A stretch of DNA of 38,524 nt from IMG/VR virus record IMGVR_UViG_3300037119_005874, positions 1 to 38,524 of that record. The stretch is one strand, 5' to 3'. Positions 4,591 through 18,453 of the stretch are shown here, piece by piece. The DNA is from a virus. Each line of letters begins with the position of its first letter. Positions within the stretch are counted from its first letter, which is position 1. The translations under genes were made by a program, and so were the position numbers. The notes below the pieces were generated by a model. The model made no database searches, was not told where the DNA came from, and saw nothing but the letters and a program-made list of their open reading frames with translations.

Positions 4591-5913
4591 ATGAGTTCAC
4601 CACTGCCGTCCAACATGGCACTGTGCACGGTGCGCGGCCGGTATGGCACCTCCGCCACCGTGGAGGGACAGTCGAGTCCCCAGTTCACGCCATACGTCGG
4701 GATGCGGGTGACCTTCACCCCCGCCTACCCGTTCGTCACCAACACCGCTGCCACCCCGAGCCCCATCGTCATAGCCACAGCTCCGCGTACGTTCGTCACG
4801 GACTCGGAAGGGTACATCTCCGATCCATACGCCGGGAACACCCGCAACTGTCAGCTCATCGCCTCCGATGATCCGGACATCACTCCCACTGGGTGGAAGT
4901 ATCTGGTCACGTTCCAAGGCCCCGGTGCCACCAACTTCCGCCCGTTTCGGACGCCAGCCCCTAGCGGGGCTGTCGTTGACATGGCCATCATCACCCCGCA
5001 GCGGGTGTCCACCGGGAACACTCCGACCAGCGCAGAGATCGCCGCCGCGAACGCCGCCGCTTCTGCTGCAGCGGCGCAAGCTGCGGTCGCTTCCATCAAC
5101 CGGGGACAGGCCGGTGGTGTCGCGCCGCTGGATGCCGACGGGGACGTCAACGACGCCTTCGGCGTCAAGGTGCTCCCCGGAGGAAGCGGCGGCGGCGGGG
5201 GTGGCAACGCCAGCGTGGACACGATCGAAGGCATGTCCACCCTTGCCAGGGCCTTCAACAAGGACACCACCGCTACTGCGATGCGCTCCCGGATCGGGGC
5301 TGGCACCGGAAACGGCACCTCCAACCTAGTACTCGGCACCGTCGCCGGGACAGCTGCGGACGCTGCGGCTGTCGCCTCCATGGTGGGCACTCGTGCGGTG
5401 GACTCCAACGTCGTCCACCGCACCGGTGATGAGTCGATCAACGGGATCAAGACCTTCATCACACCTCCTCAGGGTCCTCCCGCCGTGGGAGCAACCGACC
5501 TGATCCAGAAGGGTCAGGTGGACACCTCCGTCACCACTCTGACCACAGCGATCAACCTGCGAATACTGTCCTCAGCTCGCAGCGCCGCTAACGGAGTTGC
5601 TGGCCTCAACGCGAGCGGCAACGTCATCGACGCAGCTGGCAACGAACTCGCATCCGTTGCGCCCACCTGGACAGCGGTTCAGAACAAGCCCAACGTCGCG
5701 GTCCTGGACTCCAACTCTCAGCTGCCACTGGCGAACATGAGCCCATATGCAGTTATCCGGATCGGCAATGGCGGAGCGACTGTCCCTGTCCGTCCGGCCT
5801 TCAACGGATCAGTGGAGTTCTTCTGCTCTGTCGAGCCATCCCGTTCCGGAAGCACCGCCGGAGGAACCGCCGCCATGGCTCCCGGTGATGTCTGGCTGGC
5901 CACGGCCCTGTGA
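4591..5913 (+). CDS. Tail fibre / minor tail protein
   Basis: A 440-residue protein and the first gene of the adhesin cassette, with an RBS GGCAGGAG. It has an N-terminal ~130-residue beta domain, then an Ala-rich helical segment (residues ~147-170, likely trimeric coiled coil), a Gly-rich linker (SGGGGGGN), and short fibre repeats. Residues ~274-289 (VVHRTGDESINGIKTF) match the recurring 'VVHxTGdEtIxGxKTF' motif of phage side-tail fibres. The motifs 'APLDADGDVND' and 'AGLNASGNVIDA' are similar shaft repeats. The C-terminal ~60 residues form a beta-rich tip. The role, attaching the tail to the host surface, is inferred from fibre motifs and context. The stop overlaps the next GTG start. Confidence 0.75.
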   Translation: MSSPLPSNMALCTVRGRYGTSATVEGQSSPQFTPYVGMRVTFTPAYPFVTNTAATPSPIVIATAPRTFVTDSEGYISDPYAGNTRNCQLIASDDPDITPTGWKYLVTFQGPGATNFRPFRTPAPSGAVVDMAIITPQRVSTGNTPTSAEIAAANAAASAAAAQAAVASINRGQAGGVAPLDADGDVNDAFGVKVLPGGSGGGGGGNASVDTIEGMSTLARAFNKDTTATAMRSRIGAGTGNGTSNLVLGTVAGTAADAAAVASMVGTRAVDSNVVHRTGDESINGIKTFITPPQGPPAVGATDLIQKGQVDTSVTTLTTAINLRILSSARSAANGVAGLNASGNVIDAAGNELASVAPTWTAVQNKPNVAVLDSNSQLPLANMSPYAVIRIGNGGATVPVRPAFNGSVEFFCSVEPSRSGSTAGGTAAMAPGDVWLATAL

Positions 5914-7097
5914 GCGTCCTTCAGGTATGGCAACTGGGAGCGGACCGCATCAGCCGGTCCAGAGGAAGGCCCTCCAGGGGAACCGGGATCATCTCCGCTC
6001 AGGGTCGGATACTTGGCGTGAGCTCCGTCCAAGTAGGAACAGCTCCACCGGATCCAGGTGACGGCTACAGTCCACTGAACTGGCCTTACGGAGCGGTGTA
6101 CTCCTACCAGCCCGGACCGTCCACCACCGGAGTCCCCACCGGAACCGCGCTGACCACCTACACCGGACCTACCACGATCACCACCGACGGCACCGTCATC
6201 GATTCCAAGTTCATCCCGGTGCACCTGGTCATCCGAGCCAAGAACGTCACGATCTCCCGCTGTGAGATCGTCGGCGCACCCACCTGGACCGGTGCCGAGA
6301 GTGCGCTGATCGATCACCGGTTCGTCACCCAGTCAGGATTGTTGGTCGCGGACTGCACCATCCACCAGCAGGTCCCGAACCTGTACATCAACGCCTCGAT
6401 CGGTCATCACGCCACCTTCGTGCGGTGCAACATCTACCACTGCGTGGATGGCTTCGGTATCTACAACACCGGCGGCGGCACCAACCCAGCGACCGGTGAG
6501 CCGTACACCAACGACGGAGACATGACGGTCCTGGGCAATTGGTGGCACGACTTCTCCTTCTTCACCCCGGACCCCACGCACTCCGACAACGTCAGCCACA
6601 ACGACTTCGTCCAGTTCCATGGTGGCAAGCGCTCCCTGATCGGTGGCAACCGGATCGATCACTTCGCCGCTCCGGCGTCAGCCTTCCCGGTGGGAACCGC
6701 CGCCTACAACGGAGCCAACGCCTTCGTCAGTTCATCCGCCGCTGGTGTGGATGCCACCGCCACCACCAAGCGCGGGTACGGACAGGGTGTCTACCTGCAG
6801 TCACTGGTCAGCGCGGTCACCGGGAACACCATCGAGTACAACTGGTTCCACGGATCCGGCGGTCAGATCGTGGTCAGAGTCCCGGGCCCGAACATCATCC
6901 GTTCCAACAGGGTGGACCGCTCCGGTAAGAACTTCACGGTCAATGGCAGCCAGTACCAAATCCGCGCCAACGTCTCTTCGCTGCCGGGCATCACCGGGCT
7001 GTACACCAACGTCTGGGACGATACCGGTGCGTATCTCACCTATGACACCTCCAACCCCTCCGGCGGGTCCGGCGGCATACGCACAGACGCAGGATAA
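5910..7097 (+). CDS. Right-handed beta-helix minor tail protein
   Basis: A 395-residue protein starting at GTG within a GTGA overlap. Residues ~75-345 show the turn-by-turn pattern of a parallel beta-helix (TVIDSKFIPVHLVIRAKNVT, ISRCEIVG, ATFVRCNIYH, NVTGN/NTIEYNWFHG). This is the pattern of phage depolymerase or receptor-binding proteins and pectate-lyase-like folds. No catalytic residues can be assigned. It is related in design to the two helices encoded at 13168-14997. Its role is probably binding or trimming of cell-wall polysaccharide at the tail tip. The 60-residue N-terminus would be the attachment segment. Confidence 0.75.
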   Translation: MSVLQVWQLGADRISRSRGRPSRGTGIISAQGRILGVSSVQVGTAPPDPGDGYSPLNWPYGAVYSYQPGPSTTGVPTGTALTTYTGPTTITTDGTVIDSKFIPVHLVIRAKNVTISRCEIVGAPTWTGAESALIDHRFVTQSGLLVADCTIHQQVPNLYINASIGHHATFVRCNIYHCVDGFGIYNTGGGTNPATGEPYTNDGDMTVLGNWWHDFSFFTPDPTHSDNVSHNDFVQFHGGKRSLIGGNRIDHFAAPASAFPVGTAAYNGANAFVSSSAAGVDATATTKRGYGQGVYLQSLVSAVTGNTIEYNWFHGSGGQIVVRVPGPNIIRSNRVDRSGKNFTVNGSQYQIRANVSSLPGITGLYTNVWDDTGAYLTYDTSNPSGGSGGIRTDAG

Positions 7098-7108
7098 GGA
7101 CGGCGCAG

Positions 7109-8500
7109 ATGGTCTACTCAGTACTGGCGACGAACAACGCCGAAGGTGGCACCAACGGCACCGCAGTCTCTACCGGCAACTCCGGTGGCGCGTCCGGCCT
7201 GGCCTACTCTTCCGTCACCCCCGGTACCGGGAACACCACCACGTTCGACACCACTGACGTCTACCTGGGGACCGTGTCCTACAAGGCCACTCAAGGGTCA
7301 CCGTTCACCGCACAGAACAACACCTGGTGGGACTGGGGCGTTGGGATCACCGACCCTGGCGGCCGGTTTGCTAAGAAGTGGGACGCCGCCTCTGCGATTC
7401 CTTCGACGGTGGTGCATCGCTGGTTCAACGGTGCGAATGGTGCAGGAACCATTTTGGCTTCGATGGGTATCACCAGCACCGGCAAGTTGCAGATCGTTGA
7501 AACCAACAACGCCAACCAGGTCGTGGATTCCACCGGCACGCTGAGCGCTAGCACCTGGTACACGTTCCTGTGGCGGTACGTCGAGACCACTGGTGTGTTC
7601 ACGATCAACGCCTACGCCAAGGGCAGCACCACGGTCGCCGCCACGGTCACCATGAACATGCTGACTGGGTACTCTTTCCGCTCCGATCGGCGTGGTGTCT
7701 CCACTGCGAACTCCGGCATGGGGGCCCTGCACTGGGACGATGAGGAGATCGGCCAAGGAGGCTTTGCCGGACGCAACGATGTCGCCGTTTCTGCACCCAC
7801 CATCTCCCCGGATGCCGCGATCGATCGTGTAGCCAGCGCCTCGATCACTGTGCACGCCAACGCTTCTGTCGCTGGAGACTTGATCAGTGCGTTCACCGGA
7901 TCGTTCACCTCTATTCCGGCCGGGGCTTCCGCTCCGGCGCTGACCGGTACCGCGACTGGACTGAACAGCTCCTCTGCATCACTCACACAGACGTTCACCC
8001 CATCGGTCCCCGGCTGGTACACCTGGACCGCGACCGCAACCGGCTCTTCCACCGGGCAGACCGGCACCGGCTCCCAGGTGGTCTACGTGTCTCCGGTCGT
8101 TGGCCAGGCCGTGCCGCTGCGCAGCGTCAACTCTGTTGGCTACGTCAACGTCGGCGGTGCCGTATCCCTGGCGGCAGCCGCCACCGATGGTCTCGACACC
8201 ACCTACGCGGAATCTCCACAATCACCCAACGGCACCAGCTACGTTGAATACCGAATGGGCCCTTACGGCTCATCCGGGATCAAGTTCAATCCGCGTGGAG
8301 TCAAGGTCGGAGCTGATGCCACCACCAGGACGGTGTCCCTGTACAAGACATCCAATCTGACCACCCCGGTCTACACCACCAGTTTTGTACTGAGCACGAC
8401 GATCGCAGCGCCGGACGTCATCGTGGACGGTACTGGACTGGCGCAGCTGTCCACCGTGGACCGCCGTGAACTTGTCTGGCGGATCTCGGACTCCATCTGA
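7109..8500 (+). CDS. Multi-domain minor tail protein (lectin-like + Ig-like)
   Basis: A 463-residue protein. Residues ~1-215 look like a concanavalin/LamG-type jelly roll ('SYKATQGSPF', 'STWYTFLWRYVETTGVFTIN', 'MGALHWDDEEI'). Residues ~218-335 look like an Ig-like domain ('VSAPTISPDAAIDRVASASI' to 'PGWYTWTATATG'). The final ~125 residues form another beta-rich module (SYVEYRMGPYGSSGIKFNP...). Alternative folds for the last domain cannot be excluded. Its ATG overlaps nothing, and a GGA-rich RBS (ATAAGGACGGCAG) precedes it. The stop overlaps the next ATG by one base. It is most likely a carbohydrate-binding virion protein, inferred from fold and context. Confidence 0.7.
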   Translation: MVYSVLATNNAEGGTNGTAVSTGNSGGASGLAYSSVTPGTGNTTTFDTTDVYLGTVSYKATQGSPFTAQNNTWWDWGVGITDPGGRFAKKWDAASAIPSTVVHRWFNGANGAGTILASMGITSTGKLQIVETNNANQVVDSTGTLSASTWYTFLWRYVETTGVFTINAYAKGSTTVAATVTMNMLTGYSFRSDRRGVSTANSGMGALHWDDEEIGQGGFAGRNDVAVSAPTISPDAAIDRVASASITVHANASVAGDLISAFTGSFTSIPAGASAPALTGTATGLNSSSASLTQTFTPSVPGWYTWTATATGSSTGQTGTGSQVVYVSPVVGQAVPLRSVNSVGYVNVGGAVSLAAAATDGLDTTYAESPQSPNGTSYVEYRMGPYGSSGIKFNPRGVKVGADATTRTVSLYKTSNLTTPVYTTSFVLSTTIAAPDVIVDGTGLAQLSTVDRRELVWRISDSI

Positions 8501-9858
8501 TGACATCTGGCCGGGTATTCGGAGTCGAGTCATACTCGATCAACACTCTCAAGGCACGACTGATCGACGTCACCACGAATAACGTGGGTACAGCCGGGAT
8601 CGCTCGTGTGCTTGAAGTGTCCTCGGTTAACCTTTCGGTATCTGGCACTTCCGCCCGCGTGCATGAGGTGGTCTCCATCAACACCACCACGGCAACAGCT
8701 GCGATCACCGGTCCGGATCACGCCGATCCTGGGGACATCGTGGTGCTGAGTGCCAGCGCTTCAGTAGGAACCATCACCTCTATCATTCAGGTGGGAGGTA
8801 GCCCTACCGTTCTCCTACTGGGAAGTGGAGCAACACGCCAGTTTGTTGCCCCGGCGATCAATTCCTCAACTGCGACAGCCCTGACGTTCCGTGTGACCGT
8901 CACCGGCGGTGGAACAGCCGACGTCATCGTGCAGATCTATCCACACACCATGTGGATATGTGGACCGGATCCTGCTCGGGAACTGCTGCCGCTGTACAAG
9001 CGAGGCCGCAGCGCATTGAACAGCGCACCGGTCGGGCCGTGGCCGGGGTGGGGAGACCAGACCTACGTTGCAGACTTCACCTCACCGGTCGACATCGGAG
9101 GATTCGTCCCGGACGCAAGTGGAAATCTGACCACCTTGCAGGGTGGATCAGCAGGGTACTTGCCGTACTCCACGGTCCTGAAGACGACATCAGCTGCGCC
9201 ACAGTCATTGTCGGTGACCTATGACGGGTACCTGGATATCTGGCTGCGGCAGATCTCCGGACAGCCGGTGTTCTCCGGTGTCATTCCGTCCATGACCACC
9301 CAGACCTACGGACGGTTCGCCGTCCGGTTCCGGGCGATCAGCACCGCAGGAGGCTGGTCGACGGCGATCGGATTGACCCCGGCAGATGGTGTCCCGAGAA
9401 ACGGGCAGATCGACTTCCCAGCCGGTGCACTCAACGGTGTGGTGCTGACGACGTTCTCCCCAGCGGAGTCCGGAACCGTTCCGTCCAGTTTCGCCACTAA
9501 CGAGGTGTGGACAACTTGGCACATCGCGGTGATCGAATGGAACATCAACTCGCTGAAGTGCTACTTGGACGACGTCCTGGTCTACAGCGCTACAGTCAAC
9601 GTGCCAGCTACGCCCATGATTTTCTCGATTCGACCAGCAGGGAACAGCACAACCGATGCGCACGTGCAGATCGACTGGATCGCAGCTTGGGCTGCCGGTG
9701 GAGAACCAGCTCCCACCGCACCGAGCTACATTCCTTCCCCTGGGACCTTCCCGTCCAGCACTCTCTACCCGGCTGGCGAAGACACATCACCGGTCGAGGA
9801 AGCGATTCCTTCTACCAGCACACTCCCCTCTGACACCCTGTTCCCCTCTGGAAGCTGA
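8500..9858 (+). CDS. Minor tail protein with degenerate GH16-like domain
   Basis: A 452-residue protein. The N-terminal ~65 residues hold two short similar beta units (VFGVESYSIN, RVHEVVSINT), followed by an Ig-like region (~68-150). Residues ~185-395 resemble a glycoside hydrolase family 16 jelly roll (YGRFAVRFRA, then NGQIDFPAG, WTTWHIAVIEW, IDWIAAWAAGG). The GH16 catalytic signature ExDxxE appears as Q303-I-D305-F-P-A308, so both catalytic Glu positions are lost. Binding rather than cleavage is inferred. A Pro/Ser-rich tail (400-452) ends the protein. The ATG overlaps the preceding stop codon (ATGA-type junction at 8500). Confidence 0.72.
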   Translation: MTSGRVFGVESYSINTLKARLIDVTTNNVGTAGIARVLEVSSVNLSVSGTSARVHEVVSINTTTATAAITGPDHADPGDIVVLSASASVGTITSIIQVGGSPTVLLLGSGATRQFVAPAINSSTATALTFRVTVTGGGTADVIVQIYPHTMWICGPDPARELLPLYKRGRSALNSAPVGPWPGWGDQTYVADFTSPVDIGGFVPDASGNLTTLQGGSAGYLPYSTVLKTTSAAPQSLSVTYDGYLDIWLRQISGQPVFSGVIPSMTTQTYGRFAVRFRAISTAGGWSTAIGLTPADGVPRNGQIDFPAGALNGVVLTTFSPAESGTVPSSFATNEVWTTWHIAVIEWNINSLKCYLDDVLVYSATVNVPATPMIFSIRPAGNSTTDAHVQIDWIAAWAAGGEPAPTAPSYIPSPGTFPSSTLYPAGEDTSPVEEAIPSTSTLPSDTLFPSGS

Positions 9859-9867
9859 GGATCACTG

Positions 9868-11553
9868 ATGGCTTACGACAAGCAGACATGGGCGAACTAC
9901 CCGTCCACGGCCACTCCGCTGTCGGCTCCCCGGCTGACGTACATGGAAGATGGCATCGACACCGCGCACGACATCGCGGAAGCTGCCGCTGCTGCGGCGG
10001 CTGCCGGAACCGCGAACGGCAGTGTTACCGCTGCGAAGCTCTCCGCAGGCGTGGGAGCCAACGGCCAGGTGCTGTCCATGGTGTCCGGTGCACTGGGGTG
10101 GACCACCCCCGGTGGCCTCACCGCTACCAGTGTCAAGACCGCGAACTACACCGCCGCCGCCGGGGACTACATCCCGGTGGATACCACCAGCGGCATCATC
10201 ACGATCACATTGCCTGCCGCACCGCCGGATGGCACGCAGATCGCGATCAAGCAGGTCACTGGCGCGAACAGCGTCTCGATCGTGCGTTCCGGTTCGGCAG
10301 TTTTCAACGTTGCAGCTGGACCCACATCTATGTCGCTGGCCAGCACCGGCATCGGGGTGCAGCTGCGGTACGCCAGTGCCACCGGGATCTGGTACTCCCT
10401 GGACTCCATTCCGCTCTCCGCCGTGGGCAGTTCCTTCGCCCCGGCGACCCCGGCGAGCCCGTATGTCTACAGCAATGACACCAGGTTCACCACGGTGGAA
10501 CGGACCAAGGTTGTCTCCAACTACACCCCAGTGCTGACCGATGCTGGCAAGGTGATCGATGCCGAATCGGCTTCGGACCTGACGATCACCGTTCCACCTA
10601 CTACCTCTGTTCCCTGGCAGGACGGGACGGTGATGTCCCCAGTAGCCCTCGGAGACGGCATCGTGTCTATCTCTCCCGGAGCTGGAGTCACCTTCATCCC
10701 GGCCGGAGCGTGGAAGCTCAAGGCCAAGGGTTCCGGCGCGATGCTCCGCAAGATCCCGGGCGGCGGCGCATCATTGCCGAGCACCGGTTTGCTCCTGCGG
10801 TACAAGGCCGATGACTTGACCGGCGCCAACGGTAGTGCCGTGACCAGCTGGCCGGAATCTTCTGGGAATGGACATCCAGCAGCAACCCAGGCCACCCCTA
10901 CCAACCAGCCAACCCTGTTGACCAACTCGATCAACGGACACAAGACGGTGTCCTTCAGTGGTACCGATGACTTCCTGGCCATGTCAGGGTCTGCGTTGGC
11001 GGTCACCCAGAACAAGTCAGCACTGAGCTTTTTCGTGGCATACAACTACCCCAGCTCGGTCACGGGGCAGCGAACCCTGATCACGTTCTCCAACGGCATT
11101 TCATCCTCTTCTACTCGAACCATCCTCTACCACCGTGATGGAACAGGGACGATCGGTGCCGGTGGCCGACGGTTGGACGCCAACTCGGGTGTCTTCATTG
11201 CTGGTACCGCGTCCACATCCGGTCAATCTGAGATCGCCACCGCAGCATTCGATTACGCCAACAATGACCTGTTCATCTACAAGAACGGAACGCTGGCAGG
11301 CAGTAGCACCTCTTTCCAGACCGCTGGGTCCACGGACAACACGATCTCCCTGGCGGGCACCATCGGTGCAAACCTGACAGGTACGGCTGACTTCGCCTTC
11401 ATCCGGATTGCGGAAGTTCTCGTGTACTCCTCAGTGGACCCCATTGTCCGCGCACAGGTGCACACCTATCTGCAGGCCACCTACGGGATCTCTGCCGCAG
11501 ACGCGCTGGGGGCTGGAGACACCTGGCACATTCAGGGGGATATCACCGTATGA
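9868..11553 (+). CDS. Tail fibre protein with C-terminal LamG-like lectin domain
   Basis: A 561-residue protein. The N-terminus (TWANYPSTATPLSAPRL..MEDGI) matches the common 'TW..g.TPL.A..L..me.GI' head of actinophage tail fibres, followed by an Ala-rich helix. Residues ~80-300 contain two beta modules. Residues ~304-541 form a LamG/concanavalin-like domain (LLLRYKADDL...VTSWPESSGN..., ending EVLVYSSVD..., VHTYLQATYG). This domain is clearly homologous to the one embedded in the 1030-residue protein at 15361, so the module was duplicated or shared by recombination. It is likely a receptor-binding protein. The stop overlaps the next ATG (ATGA). Confidence 0.78.
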   Translation: MAYDKQTWANYPSTATPLSAPRLTYMEDGIDTAHDIAEAAAAAAAAGTANGSVTAAKLSAGVGANGQVLSMVSGALGWTTPGGLTATSVKTANYTAAAGDYIPVDTTSGIITITLPAAPPDGTQIAIKQVTGANSVSIVRSGSAVFNVAAGPTSMSLASTGIGVQLRYASATGIWYSLDSIPLSAVGSSFAPATPASPYVYSNDTRFTTVERTKVVSNYTPVLTDAGKVIDAESASDLTITVPPTTSVPWQDGTVMSPVALGDGIVSISPGAGVTFIPAGAWKLKAKGSGAMLRKIPGGGASLPSTGLLLRYKADDLTGANGSAVTSWPESSGNGHPAATQATPTNQPTLLTNSINGHKTVSFSGTDDFLAMSGSALAVTQNKSALSFFVAYNYPSSVTGQRTLITFSNGISSSSTRTILYHRDGTGTIGAGGRRLDANSGVFIAGTASTSGQSEIATAAFDYANNDLFIYKNGTLAGSSTSFQTAGSTDNTISLAGTIGANLTGTADFAFIRIAEVLVYSSVDPIVRAQVHTYLQATYGISAADALGAGDTWHIQGDITV

Positions 11554-12497
11554 ACACCCTGACCAAGCACTCCGCTGCACTCAAGCGAAAGACTTCCCTC
11601 TCCGCTCTCCACACCATGCCGGTCGGGGATCTTCCTGGCTGGACGCAGGTGTTCGCCGACGACTTTCTCTACACGTTCGCCGAAGGCAGCATCACCCCCA
11701 ACGGATCTGGGATCCTGGCCAGCGGTCCAGCTGCTGCCACCCTGGGCCCTAAATTCACCTTCTACCCGGACACCTGGAACAGCACCCATGGCACCAAGGT
11801 CTACCCCAAGACTGAGGGGGAGCCGGGATACCCCGGTAACTGGCCAGCGATCAACGGAAAGTACTACCCGTCGAAGGTGCTGTCGTTCGCGATGGCGCCG
11901 CCGGACGGGACTGCGCCAGGTGTCATGCAGATCAGGCAGCACTCCGAGCTTGTCGGAGGGGTGATGACCGCGATGGGAGCGGTCGTGAAGCCACGTCACC
12001 CGAGCGGCGATTACATGCGTCCCGCCTACGCACGTTACGCATTCCGGATGCGAGTCCGCTCGGCAAAGATCGGAGGCGTCGATTTCGCCCTAACGAATAA
12101 TTTCACTACGTCGCAAAACCTCTATCACATTCACGTTCCATTGAGTATTGACTCAAATAACTGGCCACAAAATGGTGAATTTAATCACCCGGACGGAGAT
12201 GTTAACCGGGCAATTAAAGGTACCTATCATCCGGCGGCTAATCAAAATGAATCATGGGTGTACGCCCCTACTCCACCGATGTCGCCATTTCAGTGGCATG
12301 TCTACGAGACCATCTGGACCCCTGGCCGTGTCCGGTTCCTGATCGACGGGATCGCGTGGAAAGACACCACGGACCGGGTGCCGTCGCAGGAGATGGCGAT
12401 CGCCTTGTTCCAGCACGAAGTCAACTGGCGCCAACCTCCGGGCGATGAAGAGGCCATCACCGACGTTGATTGGGTGGTGATGTATGACCCGGCCTGA
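11550..12497 (+). CDS. GH16-like (concanavalin fold) minor tail protein
   Basis: A 315-residue protein starting in an ATGA overlap. Residues ~30-313 fit a GH16 beta-jelly roll (FADDFLY near the N-terminus, YARYAFRMRVR, WHVYETIWTPGRVRFLIDG, DVDWVVMYDPA at the end). At the active-site strand, the expected G-E-I-D-F-P-E appears as W205-P-Q-N-G-E210-F-N212-H-P-D215. One Glu remains, while Asp and the second Glu are changed to Asn and Asp. Activity is therefore doubtful and glycan binding is more likely. A ~180-bp AT-rich patch (12080-12262) covers this site, suggesting a recombined segment. It belongs to the tail adhesin cassette. Confidence 0.75.
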   Translation: MNTLTKHSAALKRKTSLSALHTMPVGDLPGWTQVFADDFLYTFAEGSITPNGSGILASGPAAATLGPKFTFYPDTWNSTHGTKVYPKTEGEPGYPGNWPAINGKYYPSKVLSFAMAPPDGTAPGVMQIRQHSELVGGVMTAMGAVVKPRHPSGDYMRPAYARYAFRMRVRSAKIGGVDFALTNNFTTSQNLYHIHVPLSIDSNNWPQNGEFNHPDGDVNRAIKGTYHPAANQNESWVYAPTPPMSPFQWHVYETIWTPGRVRFLIDGIAWKDTTDRVPSQEMAIALFQHEVNWRQPPGDEEAITDVDWVVMYDPA

Positions 12498-12642
12498 GGA
12501 CATGACCGATGAGGATCTGCGTGCCGAACTCGATAGCACGTTGGATCGGTTGGAGCATGATCCCACCGCTGACAACCGGCTTGACGCACAACGAGCTGCG
12601 CACATCTCGTACGAACTTGCAAAGCGTGGAGGTACAGCATGA
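12484..12642 (+). CDS. Small acidic helical protein (52 aa)
   Basis: It opens at ATG 12484 inside the 3' end of the GH16-like gene. A second in-frame ATG at codon 7 is preceded by GGCCTGAGGAC and may be the real start. The product is predicted to be helical (MTDEDLRAELDSTLDRLEH..., DAQRAAHISYELAKRGG). The stop overlaps the next ATG (ATGA). Short 'LxxELxxxLxRL' proteins of this type are common next to phage tail genes. No function is assigned. Confidence 0.55.
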   Translation: MTRPEDMTDEDLRAELDSTLDRLEHDPTADNRLDAQRAAHISYELAKRGGTA

Positions 12643-12779
12643 GCGAAGATGAGAGCATGTTCGGACAGATGGGCTTGACTGGGTGGGCTGAGGGCTACCT
12701 CACCGATTCTGAGGGCAACCTGATTTCGGATCCAGAACCGGCCGAAGAACCGGCCACTGACGAAGGAGATCCCCAGTGA
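12639..12779 (+). CDS. Small acidic hypothetical protein (46 aa)
   Basis: It starts in an ATGA overlap with the preceding gene, with GGAGG eight bases upstream. The 46-residue product is strongly acidic, with a Pro/Glu-rich end (PEPAEEPATDEGDPQ). Its stop overlaps the next GTG (GTGA), so three small genes are translationally chained here. No family is recognised. Confidence 0.5.
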   Translation: MSEDESMFGQMGLTGWAEGYLTDSEGNLISDPEPAEEPATDEGDPQ

Positions 12780-13168
12780 CCGTAGGAATTTCGTCCGCGA
12801 ACCTCGCGACCCCCTGGTTGAATGTGCTCCGTGGGACCACGTTCACCGGCATCACAGCCGTTTACGTCAAACTGCACACCGCAGATCCCGGCAGCGCCGG
12901 TGCCACGGCGGCAGCTGCAGGCAGTACCACCCGGCCTGCGATCACCTGGGCCGCTCCTGCCGGTGGTGCGATTGCCATGACCGGCACCGCCCCCAGCTGG
13001 ACCAACGGCGGTACCTCCGAGACCCTCTCCCACCTGTCCTTCTGGGATGCCTCCACCGGCGGCAACTTCCTGGGATCGGTCGCGCTCGGCAGCACGCAGG
13101 CTTGGGCTTCCGGCAACGTCTACACCCTGTCCGCTCAGGGCTGGGCCCTCACTCCTCTTGCTGCGTAG
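12776..13168 (+). CDS. Small tail-fibre type structural protein
   Basis: A 130-residue protein starting at GTG (GTGA overlap; AAGGAG upstream). The N-terminal sequence (WLNVLRGTTFTGITAVYVKLHTADPG) matches a widespread actinophage tail-associated family with the hallmark 'LN.LlRGt.ft....vYvkLHTgdPG', followed by 'SFWDASTGGNFLG', also typical. It is a beta-rich virion protein, probably attached near the fibres. It is followed directly by the beta-helix gene through a TAGTG overlap. Confidence 0.72.
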   Translation: MTVGISSANLATPWLNVLRGTTFTGITAVYVKLHTADPGSAGATAAAAGSTTRPAITWAAPAGGAIAMTGTAPSWTNGGTSETLSHLSFWDASTGGNFLGSVALGSTQAWASGNVYTLSAQGWALTPLAA

Positions 13169-14997
13169 TGAACCTGCTCTCAAAGATGAGCGGTGCCGTC
13201 CTGGCTTCACGGAAATCGGTGACACCTCTACCGGAATCCTTGTGGCCAGACGACACCAACACGGGGCCGGATGCAGCGGGGTACACATCTCGATCCCTAT
13301 GGACTGGTAGCTACCTGATCTCAGGCAGTAATCAAGTCATCACCGGTCGGCAGTTCACAGGGATCGGACCGCAGGTCACCGGGAACAATGTCACCTTCCG
13401 GGGGTGCGAGTTCAAGGAGACCTACGTCGATGGCTTCCTGATGCGCCTGGACGGGATCAACTGCACCTTCGAGGACTGCCGATGGCGGCCGGGAGACACG
13501 GCAAGTCCACCGGTCATCACCCGCGCGCAGTCCTATCAGCAGGGCATCAAGATGATCAATGGTGTCGGGCTCACCGTGAAGCGCTGTGACTTCTGGGGCT
13601 TCGGCAACGCGATCGAGTTCGAGCCGTCGAGCTCCACCCAGACCAATCCGATCATCATTCAGGACTCATGGTTCCATCACGCCGCCGATCAGGCGGGCAG
13701 CACCTACCACCACGACGGCATCCTGTCCTCCTACGCGGCCAGCTACATCACCGTGGACCACAACTCGATCGTATCCGGCGGCAACACCAACGCCATCGCC
13801 TTCCAGACACCGGCAGGGCTGGGGAACTGGTCGGACCTGACTATCACCAACAACCTGCTCGGCGGGTTCGGCTACACCGTGAACCTCGGTGACGATCGTC
13901 CCAGCAACAACGTCACCTTCACCGGAAACACCTTCACCACCGAGATCGAGCCGATCTACGGTCCGTTCAAAAACAACTGGGCAGCCTTCACCGGGACCAG
14001 GGTCTGGTCGGGTAATCGCTGGAAAGTCCCTGCAGGTGCTGCCTACGGGAACCCAGCGTGGAACGACTTGTACTGGTGGCCCACAGATGGCAAGAACACC
14101 GGTGGACATATTGGTGACTACACCGGTGATGGGATCACACACGGGCGGCAGGTCAACGCCACCAACACCGGAATCGCCGGTATCGGAGTGTCGTCCGGGA
14201 GCCTGATCACCACCGGCTCCACGACCTATTCAACCGCTGGCCAGACGATCACCGGTCGCCGGTTCACCGGTCCGGTCACACTGGCCGGGAACAACATCAC
14301 GCTATCCGGCTGCCAGGTGGAGACCTCTGGCAGCACCGCTCGCGCAATCACAATCACCGGCACCGGCTGCATCGTGCAAGACACCACGATCCTCCCGCCG
14401 TCATCATCGATGCAGATCTGCCTGTACATCCCCGGCGGCAATAACGCAGTCATCCGCCGAGTCGACGCTCGGGGTGCTGAAAACATCGTCACTCTTGAAG
14501 CCGACGACGTGGTCATCGAGGACTCCTACCTGCACGATGTGTCGAACGCCGCCAACCCGGCTGGACATCGGGATGTCATCGAGGTATATGCCGGTGCCCG
14601 TGCCCGGATCCGTAGGAACCGAATGGTGATGGACGACGACGAAACCGCCGTGATCAACATCGCGCCGTGGTGGGGATCGGTCAGCGTGTCGGACTGCTGG
14701 GTCGATGACAACTACATCGACGGTGGCAACATGCACTTCGTCGTGGACGTTCAAAGTACCGGCACCATCACGAACACGAAGGTCCGTCGCAACGACATGG
14801 GTGGACACACCAATACGTTCACCGGCCGGTACACCGCGCTGAACAACGCGGACGGCCGGGCCCGGACCAACGATGACGCCGCACAAGCCAGCAACACAGG
14901 ATCGATCATGTGGCCCACCACGGGAGCTGACGTGAACCGCTGGGTTGATTGCTCCGACCTGTCTCCGGACCGAACAGGGCAGATCATCATCCCGTAG
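13168..14997 (+). CDS. Tandem beta-helix tail protein (two homologous helices)
   Basis: The start is set at GTG 13168, which overlaps the upstream TAG. A longer in-frame ATG at 13102 would lie inside the previous gene. The 609-residue product holds two parallel beta-helix domains. Residue ~55 (NQVITGRQFTGIGPQVTGNN) and residue ~361 (GQTITGRRFTGPVTLAGNN) begin homologous units, each followed by 'VTFRGCEF/ITLSGCQV' turns and ladder motifs such as IIIQDSWFHH and VVIEDSYLHD. This is the architecture of pectate-lyase-like receptor-binding or depolymerase proteins. Acidic clusters (DDDETA, HHDG) could be metal or substrate sites, but no active site is assigned. It is the longest beta-helix protein in the cassette. 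Confidence 0.75.
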   Translation: MNLLSKMSGAVLASRKSVTPLPESLWPDDTNTGPDAAGYTSRSLWTGSYLISGSNQVITGRQFTGIGPQVTGNNVTFRGCEFKETYVDGFLMRLDGINCTFEDCRWRPGDTASPPVITRAQSYQQGIKMINGVGLTVKRCDFWGFGNAIEFEPSSSTQTNPIIIQDSWFHHAADQAGSTYHHDGILSSYAASYITVDHNSIVSGGNTNAIAFQTPAGLGNWSDLTITNNLLGGFGYTVNLGDDRPSNNVTFTGNTFTTEIEPIYGPFKNNWAAFTGTRVWSGNRWKVPAGAAYGNPAWNDLYWWPTDGKNTGGHIGDYTGDGITHGRQVNATNTGIAGIGVSSGSLITTGSTTYSTAGQTITGRRFTGPVTLAGNNITLSGCQVETSGSTARAITITGTGCIVQDTTILPPSSSMQICLYIPGGNNAVIRRVDARGAENIVTLEADDVVIEDSYLHDVSNAANPAGHRDVIEVYAGARARIRRNRMVMDDDETAVINIAPWWGSVSVSDCWVDDNYIDGGNMHFVVDVQSTGTITNTKVRRNDMGGHTNTFTGRYTALNNADGRARTNDDAAQASNTGSIMWPTTGADVNRWVDCSDLSPDRTGQIIIP

Positions 14998-15360: not shown

Positions 15361-18300
15361 GTGGCTCTATGGCTGAACCATGTCGCCATCGCGACCCCCC
15401 GGAACGGCACGAGTTCTCATACGGTCAATCCTGCGAGCTCCACAACAGTAGTAGCCGGAGCGGCGTTCACCCCGACCGCCGGGAACTTCCTGGTGTGCGT
15501 GGCCGAGGGTTCGGTCACCAGCACCACGCCTTCTGGATGGACACTCCCCAGTGGCGGCAGTGCGATCAACAACACCGGATTGTATGTCTGGCACCGAACT
15601 GCAGTAGGAGCTGATTCATTCAGCTCTACACACAACGGCAGCAACTATCCGGTGATCTTCCACTTCTTCGAGTTCCCAGCTGGGAGCACCTTCTCCGGAT
15701 CGGTGTCCGGAACGTCCTACAGCTACACGGGGGCGACCGGTCCGAACCTGACGGGTTTGACCGGAACGAACCTACTGTTCTCAGTACTGGGACAGGGATA
15801 CCCAGATACCAGCGCCGCCAGGTCATTGACCTTCAGCGCGGGAACCGAGCTGATCGACTACAGCATTCCGCAGGTCACTACCGACGGTTACACCTTCGGT
15901 ATCGCCTACCTGGAGGACTCGGTCCTCACCAGTTGGAATGGTGGGACGGTCTCATCAACCGCCACCCCATCCCTGATGGAGCGGATCACCTTCGGAGTAA
16001 AGGTCGCCGCCTCCGGCTTCAGCGGATCCGGAACAAGATCATCTACTGTTTCCGGTACAGCTACCGGGTTTCTGAGTTCCACTGGGTCCGGTTCTAGCTC
16101 CACCGCCGTATCCCTTACTGCCTCTGGTGGATTAGCTGGAGCATCCGGTCCGCCAGCAACGGGAATGATTCTACGGTATAAAGCAGATAGTATCTCTGGG
16201 AGTAACGGAGCTGCTGTTTCTGCATGGCCGGAGTCCTCGGGGAACTCTCTCCCAGATGCCGTGCAAGCAACCGGAGGTAACCAACCGACACTGGCCACCA
16301 ACGTCGTCAACGGACACAAGGGTGTCACCTTCGACGGCACCAATGATCGTTTGACCCTGTCCGGGACTGCACTCGACGTCTTCCGGAACCGTGCTAGTGC
16401 GAATATCTACATCGTTCACAAATCGAACGTGATCACCGGCACCAAGACCGCGCTGGCGTACGGATCGGGAACGAGTGCTTCCCAGAGCCGGGTGTATGTG
16501 ACAACAGCGGCGACCGTCGCAACTGGCGGCCGGACTCTTGACGCAAACTCCCTGGTCGCTTTGACCGGTGGTGCTGCCAGTGCTTCGGGAACCCTCGAAG
16601 TCGTTGCCGCCCGCTTCATCTGGTCGAACTCAGATCTGTACTTGCTACGGAACGGAACCCAGCTCTCCTCCAACACGAACTACCAGACTGCTGTCAACAC
16701 CAGTGATACCGCCAGCCTTTCCGGCGTCATCGGAGCCAACTCTTCGCAGGCTGCTGAGTTCTACTCCGGCACCATCCTGGAAATTCTGGTCTACGCCAGC
16801 GATGACACCGCCTTGCGCGAGCAGGTGCACTCCTACATCGCCAATGAGTACAGCATCACGATCTTCGGTCTGGGGAACGGTTCTAGCACCACCACTGTCA
16901 GTTTGACAGCAACCGGTGCGCTAGGAGGAGTGGAATACACCGGCTCCGGAAGTACCTCCACTGCTGTCGGGATTACCGCGACAGGATTCTTGACTCTGCC
17001 AGGAAGTGCCAACAGCTCCACCACCGTGTCCGGCACAGCCACCGGTATCCGTACATCCTCCGGTACCGGATCCGCCAGCACAGCAGTGTCCCTGTCCGCA
17101 TCGGGGTTCTTGACCACATTCGGGTCCGGAGACCGCAGCACCACGGTGGCAGGAACTGCAGCAGGTTCGACTTCTGCCGGAGCTTCAGTCTCGACAGCTG
17201 TAGGGATCACCGCCGCAGGAATCTTGAGTGTCACCGGTTCTGCAGACCTCTCTGTCTCTGTCGGAAGGACTGCAGCCGGGGTTTTGACCACCAGCGGGTC
17301 ATCTTCTGTCACCGTGACGGTTTCCCCGACGGCATCTGGGCAGACGTCTGGAGCAGGTACGCGTGCTGTCGGCGTCGGGATCACCGCAGCTGGGGTTCTC
17401 ACGGTATCCGGCACAGCTTCATCCACCGTGACGGTGGCAGGTACAGCTGCAGGTGCCCTGGTGTACTCGGGGACGGCCAACAGAAGTACCTCCGTCTCCC
17501 TGTCTGCGGCGGGCAGTCTGCTTGCCGGGGGAAATGCGCCGGTAGCTATCGCTGCAGCTCTGTCTGCCGCCGGGTTCCTCACGCTCTCCGGTACCGGCAC
17601 GAGCACGTCGAACATCAACGGCACCGCGCAAGGAGGGGTGTCTGGCCCTGCAGCCGCCGGGAACGTGTCGATCGGTTTGACCGCAGCTGGCTACCTGACG
17701 GTCAGCGGCACCGCTTCTCAGAGCGTCAGCGTCGGGAGGACAGCTACTGGCGCTGCTCAGGGAACATCGAACCGGACTGTCTCGGTGTCCGGTATCGCTA
17801 CTGGATTCTGGGCCGCCGCTGGGACATCCATTCGCAGCACCGGTGTCACGATCATGGCAACCGGACGTATCTCCGGTGTCTCCGGAACCAACGTCGGAGT
17901 ATCGCTGTCGGCTACCGGTGTTCTCACCACCTCAGGTACAGGATCGGCATCTGTCACCGTTTCCAGGACAGCTGCAGGCACTGTTACCGGAGCCGGAGCC
18001 ACCTCGACGCAGGTCACCATCACCTCGACCGGTCTCAGCGCCGGAGAGGCGTCTGCAGAGGCTGCGGTATCACTTGACGCCGATGGGTTCCTGACAACTG
18101 CTGGCCAAGCTCAGAGCACTACCACTGTCACAGCCACAGGAACCGGGGAAGTCTCCGGTACGGCGACGCGAACCGTTGGTGTCCAGGGCACCGGGGCTGG
18201 GTTCCTGCAGGAGGTCGGCCAGGCACAGCGAACAGTGAGCGTGCTGATCACCGCTACCGGCAGCGAGCAGTTCTCCTCGGCTCCGAGCAACCTGGTGAGC

Positions 18301-18453
18301 GTATCCCTGACGGCAACGGGAGACCTGGAGGATCGACCGGTCTATCCGGTAGCTCCCAGCGTGATCAGGGTGGTCAACGGGCCCAGGTCGATACGCATCG
18401 ATTCCGGCATGAGGGACACAGAGATCACGGCGTCTCGACCGCGCAGAAGTTGA
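15361..18453 (+). CDS. Giant repeat-containing adhesin with embedded LamG-like domain
   Basis: A 1030-residue protein starting at GTG 15361 (GAAGGGTGG upstream). Residues 1-~215 form a beta-sandwich N-terminal domain. Two ~20-residue repeats (222-263) are followed by a LamG/concanavalin-like lectin domain (~264-504), homologous to residues 304-541 of the protein at 9868. The repeats then resume for ~25 more copies (505-~992). The repeat consensus is G-[ST]-x-x-S-[TV]-x-V-x-x-[ST]-A-x-G, and units alternate between a 'GTAxG' and a 'TAxGFLT' type. A 38-residue basic tail ends RPRRS. It is probably a long fibrous or beta-solenoid stalk presenting a sugar-binding head. The stop TGA lies inside the GTTGA promoter-like element of the next gene. 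Confidence 0.75.
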   Translation: MALWLNHVAIATPRNGTSSHTVNPASSTTVVAGAAFTPTAGNFLVCVAEGSVTSTTPSGWTLPSGGSAINNTGLYVWHRTAVGADSFSSTHNGSNYPVIFHFFEFPAGSTFSGSVSGTSYSYTGATGPNLTGLTGTNLLFSVLGQGYPDTSAARSLTFSAGTELIDYSIPQVTTDGYTFGIAYLEDSVLTSWNGGTVSSTATPSLMERITFGVKVAASGFSGSGTRSSTVSGTATGFLSSTGSGSSSTAVSLTASGGLAGASGPPATGMILRYKADSISGSNGAAVSAWPESSGNSLPDAVQATGGNQPTLATNVVNGHKGVTFDGTNDRLTLSGTALDVFRNRASANIYIVHKSNVITGTKTALAYGSGTSASQSRVYVTTAATVATGGRTLDANSLVALTGGAASASGTLEVVAARFIWSNSDLYLLRNGTQLSSNTNYQTAVNTSDTASLSGVIGANSSQAAEFYSGTILEILVYASDDTALREQVHSYIANEYSITIFGLGNGSSTTTVSLTATGALGGVEYTGSGSTSTAVGITATGFLTLPGSANSSTTVSGTATGIRTSSGTGSASTAVSLSASGFLTTFGSGDRSTTVAGTAAGSTSAGASVSTAVGITAAGILSVTGSADLSVSVGRTAAGVLTTSGSSSVTVTVSPTASGQTSGAGTRAVGVGITAAGVLTVSGTASSTVTVAGTAAGALVYSGTANRSTSVSLSAAGSLLAGGNAPVAIAAALSAAGFLTLSGTGTSTSNINGTAQGGVSGPAAAGNVSIGLTAAGYLTVSGTASQSVSVGRTATGAAQGTSNRTVSVSGIATGFWAAAGTSIRSTGVTIMATGRISGVSGTNVGVSLSATGVLTTSGTGSASVTVSRTAAGTVTGAGATSTQVTITSTGLSAGEASAEAAVSLDADGFLTTAGQAQSTTTVTATGTGEVSGTATRTVGVQGTGAGFLQEVGQAQRTVSVLITATGSEQFSSAPSNLVSVSLTATGDLEDRPVYPVAPSVIRVVNGPRSIRIDSGMRDTEITASRPRRS
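16024..18339 (+). repeat. Coding tandem repeat array (~27 units of ~60 bp) interrupted by a LamG module
   Basis: Two repeat units lie at 16024-16149. The LamG-like module occupies ~16150-16872. About 25 units follow at 16873-18339. Units encode 18-22 residues each and are diverged at DNA level (for example GTGSASTAVSLSASGFLTTF and GTASSTVTVAGTAAGALVYS). This argues for an old expansion kept at protein level rather than recent slippage. Confidence 0.8.

Follow-up and report, generated by a model that had tools for sequence, protein, structure and literature searches.

The 38,524-nucleotide stretch of viral DNA analysed here (the window) encodes a protein in which a ConA-like lectin domain lies within a tandem repeat array, with two repeats before it and 25 after it, 27 in total. 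Another protein of the same phage carries a paralogous copy of the lectin, and relatives of the array protein, several of them with fibre and connector genes as neighbours, share its N-terminal domain and tandem arrays but have no lectin. This arrangement is most simply read as the insertion of a lectin domain into an array that already existed.

A lectin domain within a repeat array

The gene starts with GTG, at a position that matches the aligned starts of its relatives, and its features are listed in Table 1. The residues that the initial annotation had assigned to the array (222-263 and 505-992), their window coordinates and the count of two plus 25 repeats agreed with ours to within a residue or two. 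In a comparison specified beforehand, a profile built from the 25 late units only scored 30.5 bits on the two early units, versus 4.3 bits for the best of 1000 composition-preserving shuffles; therefore a single profile describes the repeats on both sides of the lectin, as had been proposed. A fusion of separate proteins by frameshift or misassembly was considered and rejected, because the gene is one open frame and both the N-domain-array and the lectin modules have independent relatives.

Table 1. Features of the array gene and of associated genes in the window.
Feature	Residues	Coordinates	Strand	Remarks
Whole gene	1-1030	15361..18453	+	1030 aa; start consistent with relatives
N-domain	1-221	15361..16023	+	predicted all-beta; common to about 12 distinct phage relatives, about 47-56% identity
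Two early repeats	222-262 (units 222-241, 242-262)	16024..16146	+	late-unit profile; alignment to relatives
Inserted ConA-like lectin domain (putative insertion)	265-505	16153..16875	+	paralogue identity; Foldseek matches
25 late repeats, 18-21 residues each	506-992	16876..18336	+	periodicity and profile
C-terminal tail, R-rich	993-1030	18337..18450	+	sequence; short tails in relatives too
Second lectin-domain copy, C-terminal end of 561-aa protein 9868-11553		10777..11496	+	E 6e-60; without repeats
Small gene directly upstream, 97 aa		15045..15338	+	resembles, judged by eye, a 158-aa gene at the equivalent place in L218

Sequence and predicted fold of the repeats

Autocorrelation of residues 506-992, relative to shuffles, gave z = 10.1 at lag 20, z = 10.1 at lag 38 and z = 7.4 at lag 58. 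One Gly is kept in all 27 units; relative to it, Val is found at -6 in 23 units, Ala at -2 in 25 and Leu at +2 in 15, position -4 is occupied by Leu, Ile or Gly, and the intervening positions are mostly polar. Judged by sequence, the pattern is that of an amphipathic beta-strand. The two subtypes (GTAxG and TAxGFLT) that had been described as alternating do so as a tendency, both in unit length (P = 0.037) and in subtype (P = 0.066), and not as a strict rule; the super-period of about 40 residues derived from them is weak, and where the alternation holds a pair spans 38 residues (20 + 18), not 40.

No Pfam, PHROG or NCBIfam family matched the repeat, which bears out the impression that it belongs to no named family. 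A DNA-level tandem repeat finder detected no array in the window gene, and the repeats are therefore far diverged at the DNA level. Searches of phages by tblastn with the array alone gave no matches, for which low-complexity masking is probably responsible, and blastn of the array returned only short, chance-like matches. An initial DNA pattern for the repeat found no arrays in viral contigs, and a repeat profile run across the Actinobacteria order gave six weak matches, of which those inspected were not arrays.

Modelled alone, the array was all-beta with a mean pLDDT of 56 (25-47 in a longer model), and several beta-helices and solenoids were among its best Foldseek matches in the PDB, all of them insignificant (E of at least 1.5). 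With a model of such low confidence and matches of this kind, the suggestion that about 40 residues make up one turn or hairpin of a fibre is so far unsupported. The hydrophobic alternation and the Gly would be compatible with the triple beta-spiral of the adenovirus fibre shaft, a trimeric beta repeat with a conserved Gly/Pro turn, whereas our prediction was of a monomer.

The lectin domain and its paralogue

The array lectin shares 46% identity over 240 residues (E 6e-60) with the C-terminal domain of P0002, the 561-aa protein of Table 1, which has a different N-terminus from the array protein and no repeats. Foldseek with a model of residues 1-566, whose results table carries no query range, matched the Pan3 tailspike 9vyh (E 4.5e-9), CBM40 (E 1.5e-4) and many viral ConA-like lectins, and the earlier description of the domain as LamG-like is thus correct at the level of the fold. 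A sequence profile of the lectin alone matched the sialidase CBM40 4c1w (E 0.0019). All six aligned lectins match phrog_10356 and three of the six match Laminin_G_3 (PF13385; best E 2.5e-10); fold and family are the same, although the copy in the window has diverged too far for a direct PF13385 match and gave none. When genomes were scanned with an alignment of the two lectin copies, no relatives appeared. Related lectin domains are embedded in giant proteins of two phage contigs, L003 (4377-11684, 2435 aa) and L004 (105-9263, 3052 aa). The array lectin presumably binds cell-surface glycans.

Relatives of the array protein

tblastn with the N-domain gave no match among 50,697 phage records; relatives were found in IMG/VR and in one actinobacterial genome, about 12 distinct proteins after removal of overlaps, with N-domain identities of around 50%. 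An N-domain profile in which the window sequence itself is included matched residues 3-217, the relatives having been found independently by tblastn, and with an array starting at residue 222 the window protein fits this group. In most relatives the N-domain is followed directly by a tandem array, usually with a period of 20 residues (L216, L217, L218, L220, L225, L232, L233 and, weakly, L215); other periods are 18 (L224), 22 (L227), 24 (L219) and 29 (L229). In L222 and L223 the N-domain makes up the whole protein and an array is encoded by another gene nearby, and L221 has a different continuation.

The lectin is absent from every N-domain relative, so that the search for the array without its insert in other phages, suggested in the initial annotation, did recover array-bearing IMG/VR sequences, none with the lectin. 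The repeats of L216-L218 detected the window array at 27.2 bits versus a shuffle maximum of 6.9; taken by themselves, the two early window units are so short that the relatives' profile does not separate them from shuffles, and in the alignment they pair with units one and two of L216-L218.

Like that of the window (18337-18450), the array proteins of L215-L233 often end in short tails with tandem R- or W-rich motifs of about 9-10 residues (ExRxxxV, RRW, DRTG), which possibly constitute an anchor. A long 20-residue array was also seen in L187, from the same contig as L070, together with a beta-propeller and a Flg_new domain and with no lectin (8153-11048). A separate small ORF (7465-7806) that precedes the beta-propeller array gene there carries two repeat-like units, and a change of frame near 10290 within the array is due to a sequencing error or a frameshift.

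Probable insertion into a pre-existing array

The lectin lies at a unit boundary, between the second and third repeats, and the units that flank it (starting at residues 242 and 506) are the third most alike of 351 pairs in protein sequence and the second in DNA. Because the array-only relatives lack the lectin, its insertion into a pre-existing array would be the simplest reading of these sequences, with the lectin-free relatives as apparent empty sites; it is also possible that the lectin was ancestral to all and was lost elsewhere. Domain insertion in this group of phage repeat proteins is real and well supported, and we infer that the event took place in the lineage of the window.

The early repeats could instead be a linker between N-domain and lectin that formed separately, the array having grown on both sides with no insertion into it. 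Short linkers rich in Ser, Thr, Gly and Ala arise easily and array lengths vary widely among relatives, but the late-unit profile scores the early units far higher than shuffles, the same two units are present, aligned, in lectin-free relatives, and the flanking units are among the most alike pairs, so that we consider this origin rather improbable. About equally doubtful is that the array lacks a regular fold and serves as a disordered spacer rich in Ser, Thr, Ala and Gly: the low pLDDT values and a repeat sequence that varies strongly among relatives at a length that stays near 20 would fit such a spacer, whereas the strong hydrophobic/polar alternation, the Gly invariant in all units and the all-beta prediction argue for regular structure.

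A second array with an inserted domain

A separate array protein of 1074 aa is encoded in L222 (6197-9421) and is also present in L223, which is 99% identical to L222, and in L236 and L237. Its first three repeats are separated by an insert of about 230 residues from the roughly 30 that follow, and these early repeats scored 31.7 bits on the late-unit profile versus a shuffle maximum of 16.4. The insert is homologous to a 468-aa protein of its own genome (L222 2756-4162, E 2.8e-25) and has no match to the lectin profile; with the L222 array protein as query, only the same phage was recovered. We suggest, tentatively, that phage tandem beta-repeat stalks may be acceptor sites that take up intragenomic domain copies between repeats close to the free end, of which the window lectin and the L222/L223 domain would be two separate examples.

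Gene neighbourhood and proposed polarity of the array protein

Upstream of the array gene are seven large genes on the + strand (4591-14997), among them two coding for beta-helix-type proteins, two for GH16-like proteins, one for a lectin protein and one for a protein with a weak BppL_N match, which together probably form a rich adsorption cluster. Genes next to those of the relatives encode proteins like the Gp80 fibre I and the Gp77 fibre-tail adaptor (E 1e-26), a virion structural protein and a head-tail adaptor. The L220 array gene lies between Gp80-like and Gp77-like genes, the families of the tail-fibre cassette of podophage GP4, but the array protein has no GP4 family match and the window has no Gp80 or Gp77 neighbours. 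In L215 (3521-4768) the C-terminus of the N-domain-array protein continues into a tail terminator (phrog_123), and in L232 (5001-6926), within a head-tail gene block, into phrog_810, of unknown function. The L227 protein, with the same N-domain plus array, matches in its array the minor tail protein family phrog_13352 (E 7e-63) and also the minor tail family phrog_8501; its unit, however, has 22 residues and an unlike sequence, and the window protein as a whole matched none of the PHROG families, phrog_13352 included. The window gene follows the beta-helix, GH16-like and lectin cluster and is not beside head-tail genes, and its place in the virion may therefore differ from that of its relatives.

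We consider it reasonably probable that the array protein forms an adhesin stalk on the virion of an actinobacterial-type phage and that it gained a domain by copying. An ancestor with an N-terminal beta domain and an unbroken array of amphipathic beta repeats of about 20 residues would have received, between repeats near its N-terminal end, a copy of the lectin that the phage also uses in another protein. The array would be a long spacer, with its C-terminal end probably attached to the neck or tail of the virion, a polarity suggested mainly by the L215 fusion and more weakly by that of L232. If this end is anchored, the N-domain and lectin would be displayed near the free end to bind glycans of the cell surface.

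Phage fibres usually have their anchor at the N-terminus, and genes for probable tail-tip proteins, one with the weak BppL_N match, precede the window gene as a cluster; both would suit an ordinary tail fibre with the N-domain on the baseplate, the lectin proximal and the array pointing outward. The C-terminus, however, has no receptor-binding head, merely a tail of 38 residues, and in L215 it is this end that is fused to the tail terminator, which makes the ordinary orientation unlikely, if the most credible alternative. Presence in the virion is itself deduced, and the protein could instead be an adhesin that the phage encodes for secretion or for the cell surface, but with relatives in head-tail gene blocks and one of them fused to a tail terminator, a non-virion protein seems quite improbable.

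Known systems and implications

Inserted domains also interrupt other virion proteins. In the tailspike gp49 of phage LKA1, also a phage adsorption protein of repetitive beta structure, the beta-helix is interrupted by a globular insertion domain, a small beta-barrel; that protein is an enzyme, in contrast to the one studied here, and the available part of its description mentions no 20-residue sequence repeat (PMC5701251). The head-tail adaptor gp83 of phage DEV likewise has an inserted domain, which faces outward and was named lectin-binding by its authors, but its host is a helical bundle and not a repeat array (PMC10925440).

The results document a phage protein group that Pfam, PHROGs and NCBIfam for the most part do not cover, with one N-domain and arrays in which the period is mostly conserved and the sequence is not, and a lectin module appears to have moved into one of them. 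There are two cases with an intragenomic paralogue, and the process is therefore testable. Junctions between repeats would be natural change points in phage adhesion proteins if they can accommodate whole domains, and repeat stalks acting as acceptor sites would allow binding domains to be added or changed quickly with the anchor undisturbed.
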